Below are positions 4,437-26,589 of a stretch of 35,463 nucleotides of DNA, piece by piece. The notes under the pieces were generated by a model. That model was not told the DNA's origin, did not search any database, and saw only the letters and a program-made list of their open reading frames with translations. This stretch comes from a virus. The stretch covers positions 1-35,463 of IMG/VR virus record IMGVR_UViG_3300006919_000022; one strand, given 5' to 3'. How positions within the stretch are numbered: position 1 is the stretch's first letter; each line of letters starts with the position of its first letter. Position numbers and translations under genes: made by a program.

Positions 4437-4469
4437 CGTGATATCTTGCGTTTAACAAAGGATTAAAAC

Positions 4470-4832
4470 ATGCCACTTACCATAACAAAACCAGTCCCGG
4501 GCGGCGATGCTGATGCGTGGGGCGATAAAATTAACACCGCCCTTGATGAAATCGTTGACGCCGTAAACGGCAATGATGCCAACACGCCATTAAACCTTCT
4601 TGATGGCGCAACGGCTGAAACAGTAGTAAATAGTAAAGCTGTTATTTATGGGAATGCTGGAGAAGTTGTCGCAACATCTCTTGCCTTAGATAACGCAAAT
4701 GGTGATTGGACGTTTGAGGTTTCGTCGGACAAGCTAATCATTAAATACGGCGGCACGGCTAAGCTAGAAATAGACACAGACGGAAATTTTAAAGCTGTCG
4801 GCAATGTAGAAACGAACGGCACTATTTCGTAA
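4470..4832 (+). CDS. Small putative tail protein
   Basis: 120 aa with AAAGGATT upstream of the ATG. The first 40 residues (starting MPLTITKPVPGGDADAWGDK) contain a helix that resembles the start of many phage fiber-tip proteins. The remainder is beta-rich with the pattern K-L-E-I-D-T-D-G-N-F-K-A-V-G-N-V, also common in fiber or spike subunits. It could be a short fiber or a hub for the larger fiber. Function is inferred from pattern and neighbours only. Confidence 0.6.
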   Translation: MPLTITKPVPGGDADAWGDKINTALDEIVDAVNGNDANTPLNLLDGATAETVVNSKAVIYGNAGEVVATSLALDNANGDWTFEVSSDKLIIKYGGTAKLEIDTDGNFKAVGNVETNGTIS

Positions 4833-9826: not shown

Positions 9827-12028
9827 ATGGCAAACGAGAGCAATCCTGGTTACTGGCTAGATCAGGCGCGTAAAGCGGAGGCTGCGGGCAAATCGCAGTT
9901 GGAGGTTTTATCGCTAGTCGATAAGGCGCGTGCAGCAAAAAAGCGTAGGGAGCTAGAGGGTCGCGGCTACAAGGTTTTGGAAGAGTTTGACCAAGGGCGC
10001 ATCGTGCAGAGCGAGAGCGGCAAGATGACATACGCTGGGTCAGGTTTCTCTACGTCGGATCCCGCGGATATTGCATTGATCCGTGAGCTAGGTGGCAACG
10101 AGGCAGAATACATTAAGCAGAAAGAGGCGCGCAACGTAATCGGCCAGACCGGCGAGGGGCTTTCGCGCCTGACGTCTGCCATCAAGGGCATCCCGTTTAT
10201 CGGTGAATACTTTGACGAAATGGTCGGCGCAACGGTTGGCGATAAGCAGATGCAGCAAGCGCGCTTAGCGGCGCAGGCGCGTGAAGATATCGCGCCTGGC
10301 ACTGTGGCGGCGTCACGCGTCGCGACAGGCGTTGGCACGGCTATACCGCTAGCGGCAGGCCAGCTTGCAATGCTACCCGCAAATCTAGCGGGCCGCGTGT
10401 TAGGCGGTGCAGCGCTAGGAGCGGCGGAGGGTGGCCTTGAGGGCTACATTAGCGGCTACGGATCTGGCACAGACACAGCGTCTCGTCAAAAGGCGGCGGC
10501 CGAGCGTGGCGCAACTGGCGCAGCGTTTGGCGGAGCGCTAGGCGGCGCAGCTCCGCTTGTGACAGGCGCGGCGGGCCAAGTTGCGCGTCAGTTTATTGAG
10601 GCACCGGCAAAAGATGTCGGACGTAAAATTGGCGCCCAGGACCAAGCGCTAGAGCTGCTAAGCAGAGCGGCGGAGGTTGACGCGCCGACAGCGGCCGCAA
10701 ACCTAGAGCGCGCGGGTCAATACGCGTCTATGGGCCAGATGGGGCCGACAATGCAGGGGCTACTAGACATCGTGGCACAGTCGCCGTTTGGCGGCAGCAT
10801 CGCGCGTCAGAACATTGAGGAGGTCGCCGGTCAGGCGGGCGTTCAGTTCAACAATTTGCTAGACGACACCCTTGGCGGTCCAGTGGCCGCGCAACAAGTG
10901 AAAGACCTGTTGATGGAGACAACGTCGACAGCGCGCAAAAATGCATACGACGCAGCGTATGAGGCGACAATTGATTTTGGCCGCAAAGAGGCGGACGAAA
11001 TGCTCGATCTGCTAGAGCGCGTTAATCCGTCAATCCTAGATAAGGCGGCCAACATCGCGCGTATGGAGGGCGTCCCGTCCCTTAATAAGCTGGTCAAGAT
11101 TGGCGACGACGGCACCATCGAAGGGTTTACCGATTTGCCAGACATGCGTTTTGTGGATTATGTCACACGCGCGCTAAACGACGTCGAAGGTGTCGGCGCC
11201 GCAGAGGTCAAGAACGCACAGCGCTCACTGGCAGCGCAAATTCGCGAAAAGGCGGACAAGCTAGTGCCAGAATATGGGCAGGCGCGTGACTTAGCGGCAA
11301 GCGTGATCGACATTCGCAACGCAATTGACCTAGGCGAGACAATGCTGAAACCGGGCACTAAGGTGTACGACGTTGAGCTAGCCGTTAAGACAATGAAGGG
11401 CGCCGAAAAGAACGCTCTGAAGCAGGGCTTGCGCAGCTACTTAGACGAGACAATGGGCAACGTGAAAACGTCACTGACGGATCCAAATTTGGACGTCAGA
11501 GAGGTATTGCGTGGCCTCAAGGACCTGTCTAGCCGCAACAACCAGGCAAAGATCAAAGCGATCCTTGGCGATGCGGAGGCAAAAGAGTTCATGCGCCAGT
11601 TCGATGAGGTGTATTCAGCGATGAATATGCGCGCGTCGTCAGCGCGACAGTCAGCAACGCTGCCGCGTCAGATGTTCAAAGAAGCGGCCGAGGATATCGT
11701 AAAATCGAGAGAGACGACGGGTCAGCTAATGGGCGAGCGTGGGCCAATGACAGGCGCGATGGAATCATTCCGCCGGTCAATGCCTAACCAAGCGCCTAGC
11801 ACGACGGAATCAATGGAGCTGCTAGCGCGTGAGCTAGCGTTGCCACTGACGCGTCAGGTGTCTCTGGATGAGCTAATCCGTCAGCAACAACAGCTACGCC
11901 GTGCGGCGCCGCAATTGCAGCGTGGGCGTGAGGTATTCGAGGGTGCGTCTCGCGCCGGCACGGTAGCCGCTAAGGGGCTAACGCTCGGCGCGGTTCCTGG
12001 TCTGCTAGACTACTATAACAACCGTTAA
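9827..12028 (+). CDS. Large putative internal virion (DNA ejection) protein
   Basis: 733 aa, ATG directly after the previous stop. The N-terminus is charged and helical. Residues about 150-260 hold an Ala/Gly-rich hydrophobic region with several small-residue runs such as GAAFGGALGGAAP, suited to membrane insertion. The remaining 450 residues are amphipathic helices without Cys in the second half. Size, composition and place at the end of the late operon fit the large ejection protein of podoviruses (T7 gp15/gp16 analogues), without a recognisable enzyme domain. A separate transglycosylase-like protein is encoded at 28038-28568. Confidence 0.6.
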   Translation: MANESNPGYWLDQARKAEAAGKSQLEVLSLVDKARAAKKRRELEGRGYKVLEEFDQGRIVQSESGKMTYAGSGFSTSDPADIALIRELGGNEAEYIKQKEARNVIGQTGEGLSRLTSAIKGIPFIGEYFDEMVGATVGDKQMQQARLAAQAREDIAPGTVAASRVATGVGTAIPLAAGQLAMLPANLAGRVLGGAALGAAEGGLEGYISGYGSGTDTASRQKAAAERGATGAAFGGALGGAAPLVTGAAGQVARQFIEAPAKDVGRKIGAQDQALELLSRAAEVDAPTAAANLERAGQYASMGQMGPTMQGLLDIVAQSPFGGSIARQNIEEVAGQAGVQFNNLLDDTLGGPVAAQQVKDLLMETTSTARKNAYDAAYEATIDFGRKEADEMLDLLERVNPSILDKAANIARMEGVPSLNKLVKIGDDGTIEGFTDLPDMRFVDYVTRALNDVEGVGAAEVKNAQRSLAAQIREKADKLVPEYGQARDLAASVIDIRNAIDLGETMLKPGTKVYDVELAVKTMKGAEKNALKQGLRSYLDETMGNVKTSLTDPNLDVREVLRGLKDLSSRNNQAKIKAILGDAEAKEFMRQFDEVYSAMNMRASSARQSATLPRQMFKEAAEDIVKSRETTGQLMGERGPMTGAMESFRRSMPNQAPSTTESMELLARELALPLTRQVSLDELIRQQQQLRRAAPQLQRGREVFEGASRAGTVAAKGLTLGAVPGLLDYYNNR

Positions 12029-12201
12029 TCAGCTTTTGCCGGGCGCGTCTTGCGTGCGGCTTTAGCTTTATCTAGGTCGCGGTCTAACTCTTCAATGAGG
12101 GCCGCGGCCTTTTCACATGTCCGGTACATCGCCAAATTATTGTTAATGCGGTGCGGGTTTTTCAGTAAACGCACCAGTTCAGTTTGGTCGTCGGTAAGCA
12201 T
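12025..12201 (-). CDS. Small 58-aa protein, convergent to the late operon
   Basis: 58 aa on the minus strand, beginning MLTDDQTELVRLLKNPHR and ending in a Lys/Arg-rich tail (KAKAARKTRPAKAD). A very good ribosome site, AAGGAG, lies 6 bases before its ATG. The stop overlaps the stop of the large ejection protein gene by 4 bases, so the two genes converge. The protein is two charged helices; the basic end suggests nucleic-acid contact, but no family is recognised. It is likely expressed early, from the 12202-12275 region. Confidence 0.7.
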   Translation of the reverse strand: MLTDDQTELVRLLKNPHRINNNLAMYRTCEKAAALIEELDRDLDKAKAARKTRPAKAD

Positions 12202-24100: not shown

Positions 24101-25519
24101 ATGTCACAACGCCCCCCTGAAAATCCGTTTCTCACGCTGATGAAGCGCTACCGTGATGACCCTGTCACGTTTGCCCATGAGGTCATCGGTTTGCAGCCTG
24201 ACGAGTGGCAGGAGGAGCTGCTCCGCGCCATCGCGGATCCAGAGAAGCGCCGCATCACCGTTCGATCTGGCCACGGCGTCGGCAAGTCCACGGCGGTCGC
24301 GATGGCCGCGATCTGGCACGTCCTGATGCGCGTGCCGTCGAAGACGGTTGTCACGGCCCCCACGTCGTCCCAATTGTTTGACGCCTGTTTCGCCGAAATG
24401 AAAAATGTGGCCAAGCGGCTAAAGCCCCCCTTTGATAAATTGTTGGAGATTAAATCGGACCGCATTGAATTGAAAAGCCAACCCGAGGCCACGTTTATTT
24501 CGTGCCGGACGTCCCGCGCCGAGCAGCCGGAGGCGTTGGCCGGCGTTCACAGTGAGAACGTGTTGCTCATTGCCGACGAGGCTAGCGGTGTCCCGTCGGC
24601 CGTGTTTGAGGCTGCCTCTGGGTCGATGTCCGGCCACAATGCGACCACGGTGCTGACGGGCAACCCCACGCGAAACACGGGGTTTTTCTATGACACGCAC
24701 AATCGGCTGCGCGATGATTGGTACACGATGCATGTGAGCTGCGTTGACAGCAAGCGCGTGTCCGACGATTTCGTCGAGGACATGAAGCGGCGCTACAGCG
24801 AGGACAGCCCCGCGTATCATGTGCGCGTCCTGGGCAACTTTCCCCCGTCTGAGGAGGATACTGTGATCCCTGTGGCGCTGATTGAACACGCGATGGCCAA
24901 CGACATCAAGATCCACGACGAGACGATGGGGTTTTGGGGCTTGGACGTCGCCCGACAGGGCAACGACAGCAGCGTGCTATGTAAGCGGCAGGGTCCCGTG
25001 ATCCACCCGCTCACGGTCTGGCGAAATCTCGATTTGATGCAGCTCACGGGCGCCGTCAAGGCCGAGTGGGACGCGACCCCGCCGTCCAGGCGCCCCTTGG
25101 AGATCATCGTGGACAGCAACGGCTTTGGTGCGGGTGTATTGGACCGCCTGCGCGAGCTGGGGCTGCCCGCGCGTGGATTGAACGTGTCTGAGAGGGCCAC
25201 GCAAAAGGAGACGTACCTGAACACGCGCGCTGAGCTGTGGTTTAAGTGCAAGACGTGGCTGGAGGGTATGGACGTTAAGCTGCCGCGCGATGACGCGCTG
25301 TATGCGGAGCTAGCGGCGCCCCGGTATCACTTTACGAGCGCGGGCAAGCTGCAAGTGGAATCGAAGGAGGCGATGAAAAAGCGCGGCGTGGCATCGCCCG
25401 ACCGCGCTGACGCCGTGTGCCTGGCGCTGGCCAATGACCACACGACGATGGCCTACGGAAGCGCGTCGAGCGGCTCATGGAGCCGCCCGTTGAAGCGTGG
25501 AATACGCGGTGTTGTTTAG
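24101..25519 (+). CDS. terL: Terminase large subunit
   Basis: 472 aa, TAGGAG ribosome site. The ATPase half has Walker A SGHGVGKST (56-64) and Walker B VLLIADE (154-160), with TGNPT as the coupling motif (185-189). The nuclease half has the RNase H-type acidic residues: Asp281 (GLDVARQG), Asp337 (VDSNGFG) and Asp435 (SPDRADAVCLA). It pumps DNA into the procapsid through the portal and cuts it. Length and motifs are normal. Its stop overlaps the stop of the convergent HNH gene by 3 bases. Confidence 0.95.
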   Translation: MSQRPPENPFLTLMKRYRDDPVTFAHEVIGLQPDEWQEELLRAIADPEKRRITVRSGHGVGKSTAVAMAAIWHVLMRVPSKTVVTAPTSSQLFDACFAEMKNVAKRLKPPFDKLLEIKSDRIELKSQPEATFISCRTSRAEQPEALAGVHSENVLLIADEASGVPSAVFEAASGSMSGHNATTVLTGNPTRNTGFFYDTHNRLRDDWYTMHVSCVDSKRVSDDFVEDMKRRYSEDSPAYHVRVLGNFPPSEEDTVIPVALIEHAMANDIKIHDETMGFWGLDVARQGNDSSVLCKRQGPVIHPLTVWRNLDLMQLTGAVKAEWDATPPSRRPLEIIVDSNGFGAGVLDRLRELGLPARGLNVSERATQKETYLNTRAELWFKCKTWLEGMDVKLPRDDALYAELAAPRYHFTSAGKLQVESKEAMKKRGVASPDRADAVCLALANDHTTMAYGSASSGSWSRPLKRGIRGVV

Positions 25520-26214
25520 CGTTGGAACGGGTCGTGCTGGTAGCAGGTCCTGTTCCAGTAGAACATTAGCCCCTCATCGACCATTAACTTGATAAACTTG
25601 TTTATGGTGCGTTCGGACGCGCCAATTTGAGCGCTGGCTTCTTTTTTTAGCTGCGCTCTTCTAACTGTTCCGTTATGCGACGACATTATCTGCTTGATCA
25701 CGAAGAAATAGTCTTCACGGTTGTTAAATGAGCGCATCTCATACGCCTTAGCTTTTTCGTAAACCTCGCCCCCAAGTGGCACGATAACGAGCTTTTCCTC
25801 AACGCCATCGCTTGTGGTTATCTTTATTGGCACTTGGATGCTCTCAATCTCGTATCCGTAGCCGTCTATAGTGTCTGCGATGCTAGATAGAAACACGTTT
25901 AAAAGTTTGCCAGTTGATACCTGTGTTGACTTCATCGCGTTGCGTACTTTTTCGGCTTTTCTGCTTGCGGTCGCGAGTAGCAGCCCCTCGTGCATTCGCG
26001 GCAGCCTGTTTCCAGATTTCTGCGAATTACATTTTAAGCAGCTCAGCGCGAGATTCTCAATATCACAGCTCCCGCCCGCGCACTTAGGCACAATGTGATC
26101 AATATGATATTCGTTAACAGCAACGTCGTTTCTGCAATATGCGCACTTATTGTTCCACGCATACTTAATTGCGTTTTTCTCTGACTGCGTCAGCTTTCTG
26201 CGTTGTAGCGTCAT
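25516..26214 (-). CDS. HNH endonuclease with C-terminal winged-helix-like region
   Basis: 232 aa on the minus strand. The nuclease core is at residues about 20-75: CAYC, YHIDHIVPKCAGG, IENLALSCLKCNSQKSG, a classic zinc-stabilised HNH. Residues about 175-220 (VIKQIMSSHNGTVRRAQLKK, then IGASERTINKFIKLMVDEGL) look like a helix-turn-helix/winged helix. The DNA is clearly AT-richer than the flanking terminase and head genes, a sign of separate acquisition. It faces the large terminase and overlaps it, as many free-standing homing nucleases do. The ribosome site is the extended AAAAGAGGAGAA shared with the early operon. Confidence 0.88.
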   Translation of the reverse strand: MTLQRRKLTQSEKNAIKYAWNNKCAYCRNDVAVNEYHIDHIVPKCAGGSCDIENLALSCLKCNSQKSGNRLPRMHEGLLLATASRKAEKVRNAMKSTQVSTGKLLNVFLSSIADTIDGYGYEIESIQVPIKITTSDGVEEKLVIVPLGGEVYEKAKAYEMRSFNNREDYFFVIKQIMSSHNGTVRRAQLKKEASAQIGASERTINKFIKLMVDEGLMFYWNRTCYQHDPFQR

Positions 26215-26244: not shown

Positions 26245-26259
26245 TTAATAGATTGTTAA
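26245..26259. promoter_or_regulatory. CtrA-like box C (perfect TTAA-N7-TTAA)
   Basis: TTAA (26245-26248), seven bases, TTAA (26256-26259) is an exact match to the CtrA consensus in both orientations. On the minus strand it lies 30 bases before the HNH start codon. On the + strand it sits next to a possible promoter for the small RNA candidate (TAGACA 26262-26267, 17 bases, CATATT 26285-26290), where the box would be just upstream of the -35 element. Confidence 0.55.
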
Positions 26260-26261
26260 CA

Positions 26262-26290
26262 TAGACACAAGTACCATTTTCAGGCATATT
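26262..26290 (+). promoter_or_regulatory. Possible promoter of the small RNA candidate
   Basis: TAGACA (26262-26267; 5 of 6 to TTGACA), 17-bp spacer, CATATT (26285-26290; 4 of 6 to TATAAT). Transcription would begin at about 26297, which is just at the 5' side of the first hairpin stem. The CtrA-like box C ends two bases before it. Confidence 0.4.
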
Positions 26291-26291
26291 C

Positions 26292-26375
26292 TTGGCAGCG
26301 GCTTCTCTTACTCCTCCCACAAGCCGTAGAGCCAAAAGCTCCCCCGCGCTGATCTCCCACGGCGCGGGGTTTATT
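26292..26375 (+). ncRNA. Candidate 'cuckoo'/CcsR-like small RNA with anti-SD loops
   Basis: Two hairpins. Hairpin 1: CGGCTT (26299-26304) pairs perfectly with AAGCCG (26321-26326), extendable by TTGGC/GCCAA (26292-26296, 26331-26335); its 16-base loop contains ACTCCTCCCAC. Hairpin 2: CCCCGCGC (26342-26349) pairs with GCGCGGGG (26362-26369) around a loop containing CTCCCAC, followed by TTTATT as a terminator tail. Both loops therefore show C-rich anti-Shine-Dalgarno motifs. Alphaproteobacterial CcsR/'cuckoo' RNAs are known as short two-hairpin RNAs with CCUCCUCCC in the loops; the first loop matches 8 of 9. A promoter is present upstream. Host versions usually follow DUF1127 genes; none is here. 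Confidence 0.5.
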
Positions 26376-26424
26376 ATGCCCTGTTTTCATGTATTATGTG
26401 CATAACGAGCAGAGGGTTACCGAT

Positions 26425-26589
26425 ATGCCAAAAAAGGGCTTATATGCGAATATTCACGCTAAGCGTAAGCGTATTGCGAAGGGCAGCGGCGAAAAGATGC
26501 GCAAGCCGGGAAGCAAGGGCGCGCCGAGCGCTAAGGCGTTCAAGGCGGCTGCCAAGACGGCTAAGAAGAAATCAAAGGGTAAGAAGTGA
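26425..26589 (+). CDS. Small basic protein (MPKKGLYANI family)
   Basis: 54 aa from ATG 26425 (GAGG upstream); an upstream in-frame ATG at 26389 has no ribosome site and falls just after the RNA hairpin. The sequence MPKKGLYANIHAKRKR followed by an Arg/Lys/Ala-rich tail is a small basic protein I recognise from many marine podoviruses, usually near packaging and head genes. It carries a very high positive charge and probably binds DNA, perhaps as a packaged or head-associated protein. Function is not established. Confidence 0.7.
   Translation: MPKKGLYANIHAKRKRIAKGSGEKMRKPGSKGAPSAKAFKAAAKTAKKKSKGKK

Follow-up and report, generated by a model that had tools for sequence, protein, structure and literature searches.

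The window, that is, the whole stretch of DNA analysed here, is a virus record of 35,463 bases with a podovirus-like gene set that includes portal, SU10-type major capsid protein, terminase, primase/helicase and tail-fibre genes. The terminase gene on the plus strand is followed by an HNH endonuclease gene on the minus strand, a 210-base gap holding the RNA described here, and the late module, giving the following features.

24101-25519, plus strand: terminase gene.
25516-26214, minus strand: HNH endonuclease gene with a GAGGAG ribosome site, the divergent neighbour in an exchangeable cassette, outside the RNA.
26245-26259, plus strand: CtrA-type box TTAATAGATTGTTAA (TTAA-N7-TTAA), almost touching the -35 box.
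About 26260-26290, plus strand: predicted promoter P1, CATAGAC-N17-GCATAT (TAGACA-17-CATATT), with the layout of the NfeR1 promoter.
26294-26377, plus strand: small RNA with predicted limits (starting around 26294-26298 and ending within the T-rich tail), based on the R1 match and a fold z of -3.88.
26298-26327, plus strand: hairpin 1, stem GCGGCUU/AAGCCGU (26298-26304 with 26321-26327), loop CUCUUACUCCUCCCAC.
26311-26318, plus strand: anti-Shine-Dalgarno (anti-SD) motif CUCCUCCC in the hairpin 1 loop.
26329-26341, plus strand: short helix 2, GAGC-CAAAA-GCUC (GAGC 26329-26332 with GCUC 26338-26341), evident in relatives.
26342-26369, plus strand: hairpin 3, the GC-rich terminator stem (26342-26351 with 26360-26369), loop AUCUCCCA.
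26354-26358, plus strand: anti-SD motif CUCCC in the hairpin 3 loop.
26370-26377, plus strand: T-rich tail TTTATTAT, whose first bases may also serve as the -35 of P2.
26390-26397, plus strand: TGTATTAT, the conserved -10-like box of a putative late promoter P2, at a distance of 22 nt from the terminator stem.
26425-26589, plus strand: first late gene, encoding a 54-aa basic protein (MPKKGLYANIHAKRKRI..., PHROG 16028), with counterparts 3' of the RNA in relatives.

The 54-aa phage protein encoded next to the RNA gave no Pfam match. The HNH gene is missing from the terminase-RNA interval in most relatives, in which this interval is a hot spot for the exchange of cassettes of minus-strand genes, HNH among them. 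In L079-L081, several exchanged cassettes have GGGGAGCnnnGCTCCCC terminators behind their genes.

The original prediction placed two hairpins with C-rich loops and a U-rich tail in the gap, and all of these are present. The plus strand of 26262-26385 folds with a minimum free energy (MFE) of -42.5 kcal/mol, compared with -29.4 ± 3.4 kcal/mol for shuffled sequences (z -3.88; 0 of 200 shuffles as good), and the minus strand of the RNA region folds less well (z -1.76). The two-hairpin layout itself proved incomplete, with relatives revealing the third short helix between the hairpins; in the lineage of the window, helix 2 has an alternative in which GCCAA pairs with UUGGC of the 5' end. The MFE fold does include a proposed outer pairing of GGCATA with TATGCC. 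Because this stem runs into the -10 box and relatives have not conserved it, we rejected it as probably not belonging to the RNA.

We collected 80 relatives by a terminase search of IMG/VR. In most of them the 230 bases ahead of the small basic late gene share one layout, namely xGCGGx...xCCGCx with a C/U-rich loop, GAGC...GCUC, and a CCCC...GGGG terminator with a CUCCC-type loop. A covariance model (R1) built from 13 sequences, one of them that of the window, matches 26292-26379 with 61.1 bits. It found 64 matches over 86 sources on the terminase side; on the portal side there were 36 over 80, many of the sources without a match being contigs that end too early. Altogether, related IMG/VR phages, which are uncultured and mostly marine, carry 55 distinct RNA sequences, and the place of the RNA ahead of the late genes is fixed in most lineages. 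Among 22 longer records that we checked whole, all 19 long IMG/VR records contain a match, with G046 and G047 having it at another locus (stems AGAGCC/GGCUCU and CCCCGAGC/GCUCGGGG, loop CUUCCUCCCAA); three Manatee Spring phages with about 51-56% identical terminases, also checked whole, gave no R1 match. Distant relatives with 71-81% terminase identity carry either versions that follow the terminase closely and differ in their stems but have similar loops (L201, L207 and L208) or a ACUCCUCCUCU stretch in single-stranded RNA (L205 and L210). One relative (L012:3326-3409) keeps only the terminator hairpin with its CUCCC loop, hairpin 1 and helix 2 being swapped for other sequence. The L028/L037 lineage has an anti-SD hairpin RNA with different stems elsewhere in the genome, near an early gene block (L189:4071-4145 and L190:3948-4022, both minus strand). 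Two further matches were discarded: that in phiM5 (18.6 bits) has no anti-SD loop on inspection and a fold z of -1.5, and that in L218 (17.6 bits) is a chance match to C-rich sequence. A search for similar DNA in phages and plasmids returned chance matches only.

Hairpin 1 of the diverged members was misplaced in the MAFFT alignment A1, and we therefore used the model-based alignment A3. In this alignment, which was fitted to the model structure and has 46 distinct but related rows, 96.8% of cells pair and double-sided changes occur in 13 of the 20 pairs, so that the compensatory changes sought by the original prediction are indeed found in related phages. Every one of the six modelled pairs of hairpin 1 shows such double changes. 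The covariation score was 0.223, compared with 0.109 ± 0.007 for shuffles and 0.002-0.041 for slid structures, and RNAalifold predicted 18 pairs from A3, 12 of them with double changes. All three helices are conserved in A3 with strong covariation. Furthermore, G-U cells outnumber A-C cells in A3 (45 vs 7), which argues for a plus-strand RNA over either a minus-strand RNA or a hairpin formed in DNA. The element is a real, conserved phage RNA gene.

The YUCC/CUCCC motif stays unpaired while the stems differ between lineages, and the anti-SD loop survives replacement of the stem, for example in L201, L207, L208 and L189. Loops of the anti-SD type are found in 15 of 19 terminators of the element; of the other terminator-like hairpins of these phages, 13 of 336 have one. 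The hairpin that bears the motif is not always the same one, and a few members have a weak motif; in the L062-L075 lineage it has gone from the terminator loop, with UUCCUCCCC in hairpin 1 and a new UUUUCCUU loop on helix 2. We also considered whether the element is an insulator only, in which a strong terminator shields the late operon from read-in out of the early cassettes, perhaps together with a DNA or protein site, and the loops are kept by descent. The gene-exchange hot spot upstream and the fusion of the terminator to P2 would fit such a role, but the covariation of hairpin 1 and helix 2, the excess of G-U over A-C and an anti-SD motif that outlives its stems make it very improbable.

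Rfam at its gathering threshold gave no match in the window. When the gap alone was scanned with cmscan, ar14 (RF02344) was the sole notable match, at 24.2 bits (E 0.0093 in a 301-base search) against a cut-off of 58.8; ar14 also stays below the cut-off in all 45 related records, a handful of which show a weak match at the element. The RNA is therefore cuckoo/NfeR1-like by anatomy, and these results do not support placing it in the ar14 family. The cuckoo/CcsR likeness claimed originally thus holds for the covarying stems, the kept loop motif and the choice of ar14 among the Rfam models, but the match is too weak for assignment. CcsR/cuckoo RNAs have a two-hairpin layout with C-rich loops, which the phage RNA shares with CcsR1-4 of Rhodobacter sphaeroides, and differing stems around kept C-rich anti-SD loops, a cuckoo trait, are found in the phage RNA as well. 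Co-transcription with the DUF1127 protein CcaF1 is not found, the neighbours being the HNH gene and the gene of the 54-aa phage protein. CcsR1-4 have the DUF1127 gene ccaF1 upstream in an RpoH-driven protein-sRNA operon (PMC10253847), which is absent in the phage, and the phage RNA is present in single copy at a late-gene junction. The alpha-r14/NfeR1 RNAs (RF02344) of Sinorhizobium and other Rhizobiales resemble the phage RNA in their C/U-rich anti-SD loops, GC-rich terminator hairpin, variable stems with kept loops and sigma-70 promoter type, but they consist of three hairpins, each with CCUCCUCCC in its unpaired parts (PMC10746234). The phage RNA instead has CUCCUCCC once, in hairpin 1, and CUCCC once, in hairpin 3, and its helix 2 lacks an anti-SD motif here and in most lineages; it is also phage-encoded, with a CtrA-type box upstream. 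In Caulobacter crescentus, the SisA-D siblings carry a 10-mer anti-SD signature and repress many mRNAs (PMC12559287). The phage RNA is like them in having an anti-SD signature, whereas they are Hfq-bound host RNAs under nutrient control. To our knowledge, few phage-encoded sRNAs are known, and these come mostly from phages of enterobacteria and vibrios. We found no anti-SD RNA of alphaproteobacterial phages in the literature searched, which is weak evidence of novelty, most subscription journals lying outside the search, and a review of phage-derived sRNAs does not mention Alphaproteobacteria (PMC12197685).

The promoter match TAGACA-17-CATATT is present as originally described, and P1 is a near match in sequence to the sigma-70-type NfeR1 promoter, CTTAGAC-N17-CTATAT (PMC10746234). 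The TTAA-N7-TTAA box upstream is the CtrA consensus (PMC9437464). Allowing up to one mismatch, it occurs in 43 of 53 distinct upstream windows, compared with 4.5% of random windows; exact sites number 25 within 140 bases upstream of the RNA versus 17 elsewhere in the same loci, and none of the other TTAA spacings tested rose above 5 upstream. The box points to an alphaproteobacterial host, and CtrA may control the RNA, as far as sequence can tell. A second exact TTAA-N7-TTAA site lies at 4452-4466 of the window, ahead of a gene at 4470. In L062-L075, several of which have no nearby CtrA-type box, an inverted repeat AGTTTGCGAAAAA...TTTTTCGCAAACT sits directly 5' of the -10 box and is a possible regulator site. 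A contig in a GTDB Opitutae MAG (L082) contains the RNA within a closely related phage, with a terminase identity of 87%; it could be a hint to the host, and is probably a misbinned phage contig.

Behind the terminator stem, TGTATTAT follows at a spacing of 22 bases in 42, 23 in 4 and 24 in 3 of 49 distinct loci. Given this fixed spacing, the T-rich tail of the terminator probably has a second function as the -35 region of P2. Lambda 6S RNA (pR'-tR') is a short terminated late leader, and the phage RNA is likewise short, terminated and just 5' of late genes, with promoter, short RNA and terminator directly ahead of them. The main rival explanation is a terminated leader of this kind, in which the P1 RNA stops until antitermination and has no targets. 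The fixed order of promoter, short RNA, terminator and late genes and the presence of the terminator in nearly all relatives are what it would predict. However, the separate, conserved P2-like box behind the terminator, a difference from lambda, suggests that the late genes have a start of their own; hairpin 1 and the anti-SD loops, also unlike lambda, are conserved though a leader does not need them; and G046 and G047 have the element elsewhere. We therefore consider a late leader unlikely.

The ribosome site GGAGUAA of a minus-strand gene (12025-12201) had been proposed as a target, and an 8-nt match between AGGAGUAA of this gene and UUACUCCU exists, making it a predicted target by sequence match. 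In a co-evolution test on the phages' own genes, own loops had no significant advantage over those of other lineages (p 0.08 and 0.12), which leaves both this target and the proposed GAGGAG sites of early genes unconfirmed. With gene starts called by a simple script instead of a trained gene finder, pairing with own loops is stronger for early plus-strand genes than for late genes (mean -10.7 vs -8.7 kcal/mol; pooled p 6e-8), a direction seen in 8 of 9 genomes. After subtraction of 16S pairing the difference is nominal, and only in the window (p 0.035) and G006 (p 0.026), so the gap may reflect only stronger SDs of early genes.

A locally acting antisense RNA would instead use its hairpin 3 loop to pair with the SD of the adjoining divergent early gene, in some lineages by loop-loop contact. 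In L008, L010, L013, L016, L022, L030 and L044 (minus strand), this SD is located within a six-base loop that is complementary to the hairpin 3 loop and is closed by a small stem varying with compensation (GUGC[UGGGAG]GCAC or GCGC[UGGGAG]GCGC). An 8-nt match to the hairpin 3 loop, GCCUCCCA/UGGGAGGC, is found in L008, L010, L013, L022, L030, L044 and others, and the divergent neighbour ranks first in L008, L016, L017, L030 and L044. Averaged over 39 loci, however, the divergent gene ranks at percentile 0.42, close to chance, and the window's own neighbour (HNH, GAGGAG) ranks 20 of 53. We thus rejected the adjacent gene as a universal target and regard a purely local action as improbable.

Taken together, a conserved hairpin RNA with loops able to pair with ribosome sites, like those of alphaproteobacterial stress RNAs, suggests that these phages, while infecting, probably turn down the translation of selected genes. 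We consider it likely that the element is a stand-alone phage gene for an anti-SD sRNA, which acts in trans and lowers the translation of early mRNAs of the phage, of mRNAs of the host, or of both. Such a gene would be transcribed into an RNA of ~80 nt from a promoter of the host sigma-70 type that lies next to or 3' of the CtrA-type box, with a start at the base of hairpin 1 and a stop at hairpin 3. Its C/U-rich loops would act as anti-SD seeds, pairing in trans with G-rich ribosome-binding sites and blocking translation initiation as NfeR1 and cuckoo RNAs do. We infer that early phage genes and host mRNAs are the targets, and their repression would help the shift from early to late expression. 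It is tempting to speculate further that these RNAs form a widespread phage family, undescribed so far, which imitates the anti-SD stress RNAs of the host, is turned on by CtrA, a regulator of the host cell cycle, and moves ribosomes from early phage (and host) to late mRNAs, a possible but doubtful extension.

The covariance model can now be used for searching more phages. Among the regulators of alphaproteobacteria, anti-SD sRNAs form an important class. The RNA, if it acts as proposed, would be a direct translational lever for the phage, to be used on the host as well as on the phage's early-to-late switch, while the CtrA-type box would tie phage timing to the host cell cycle.
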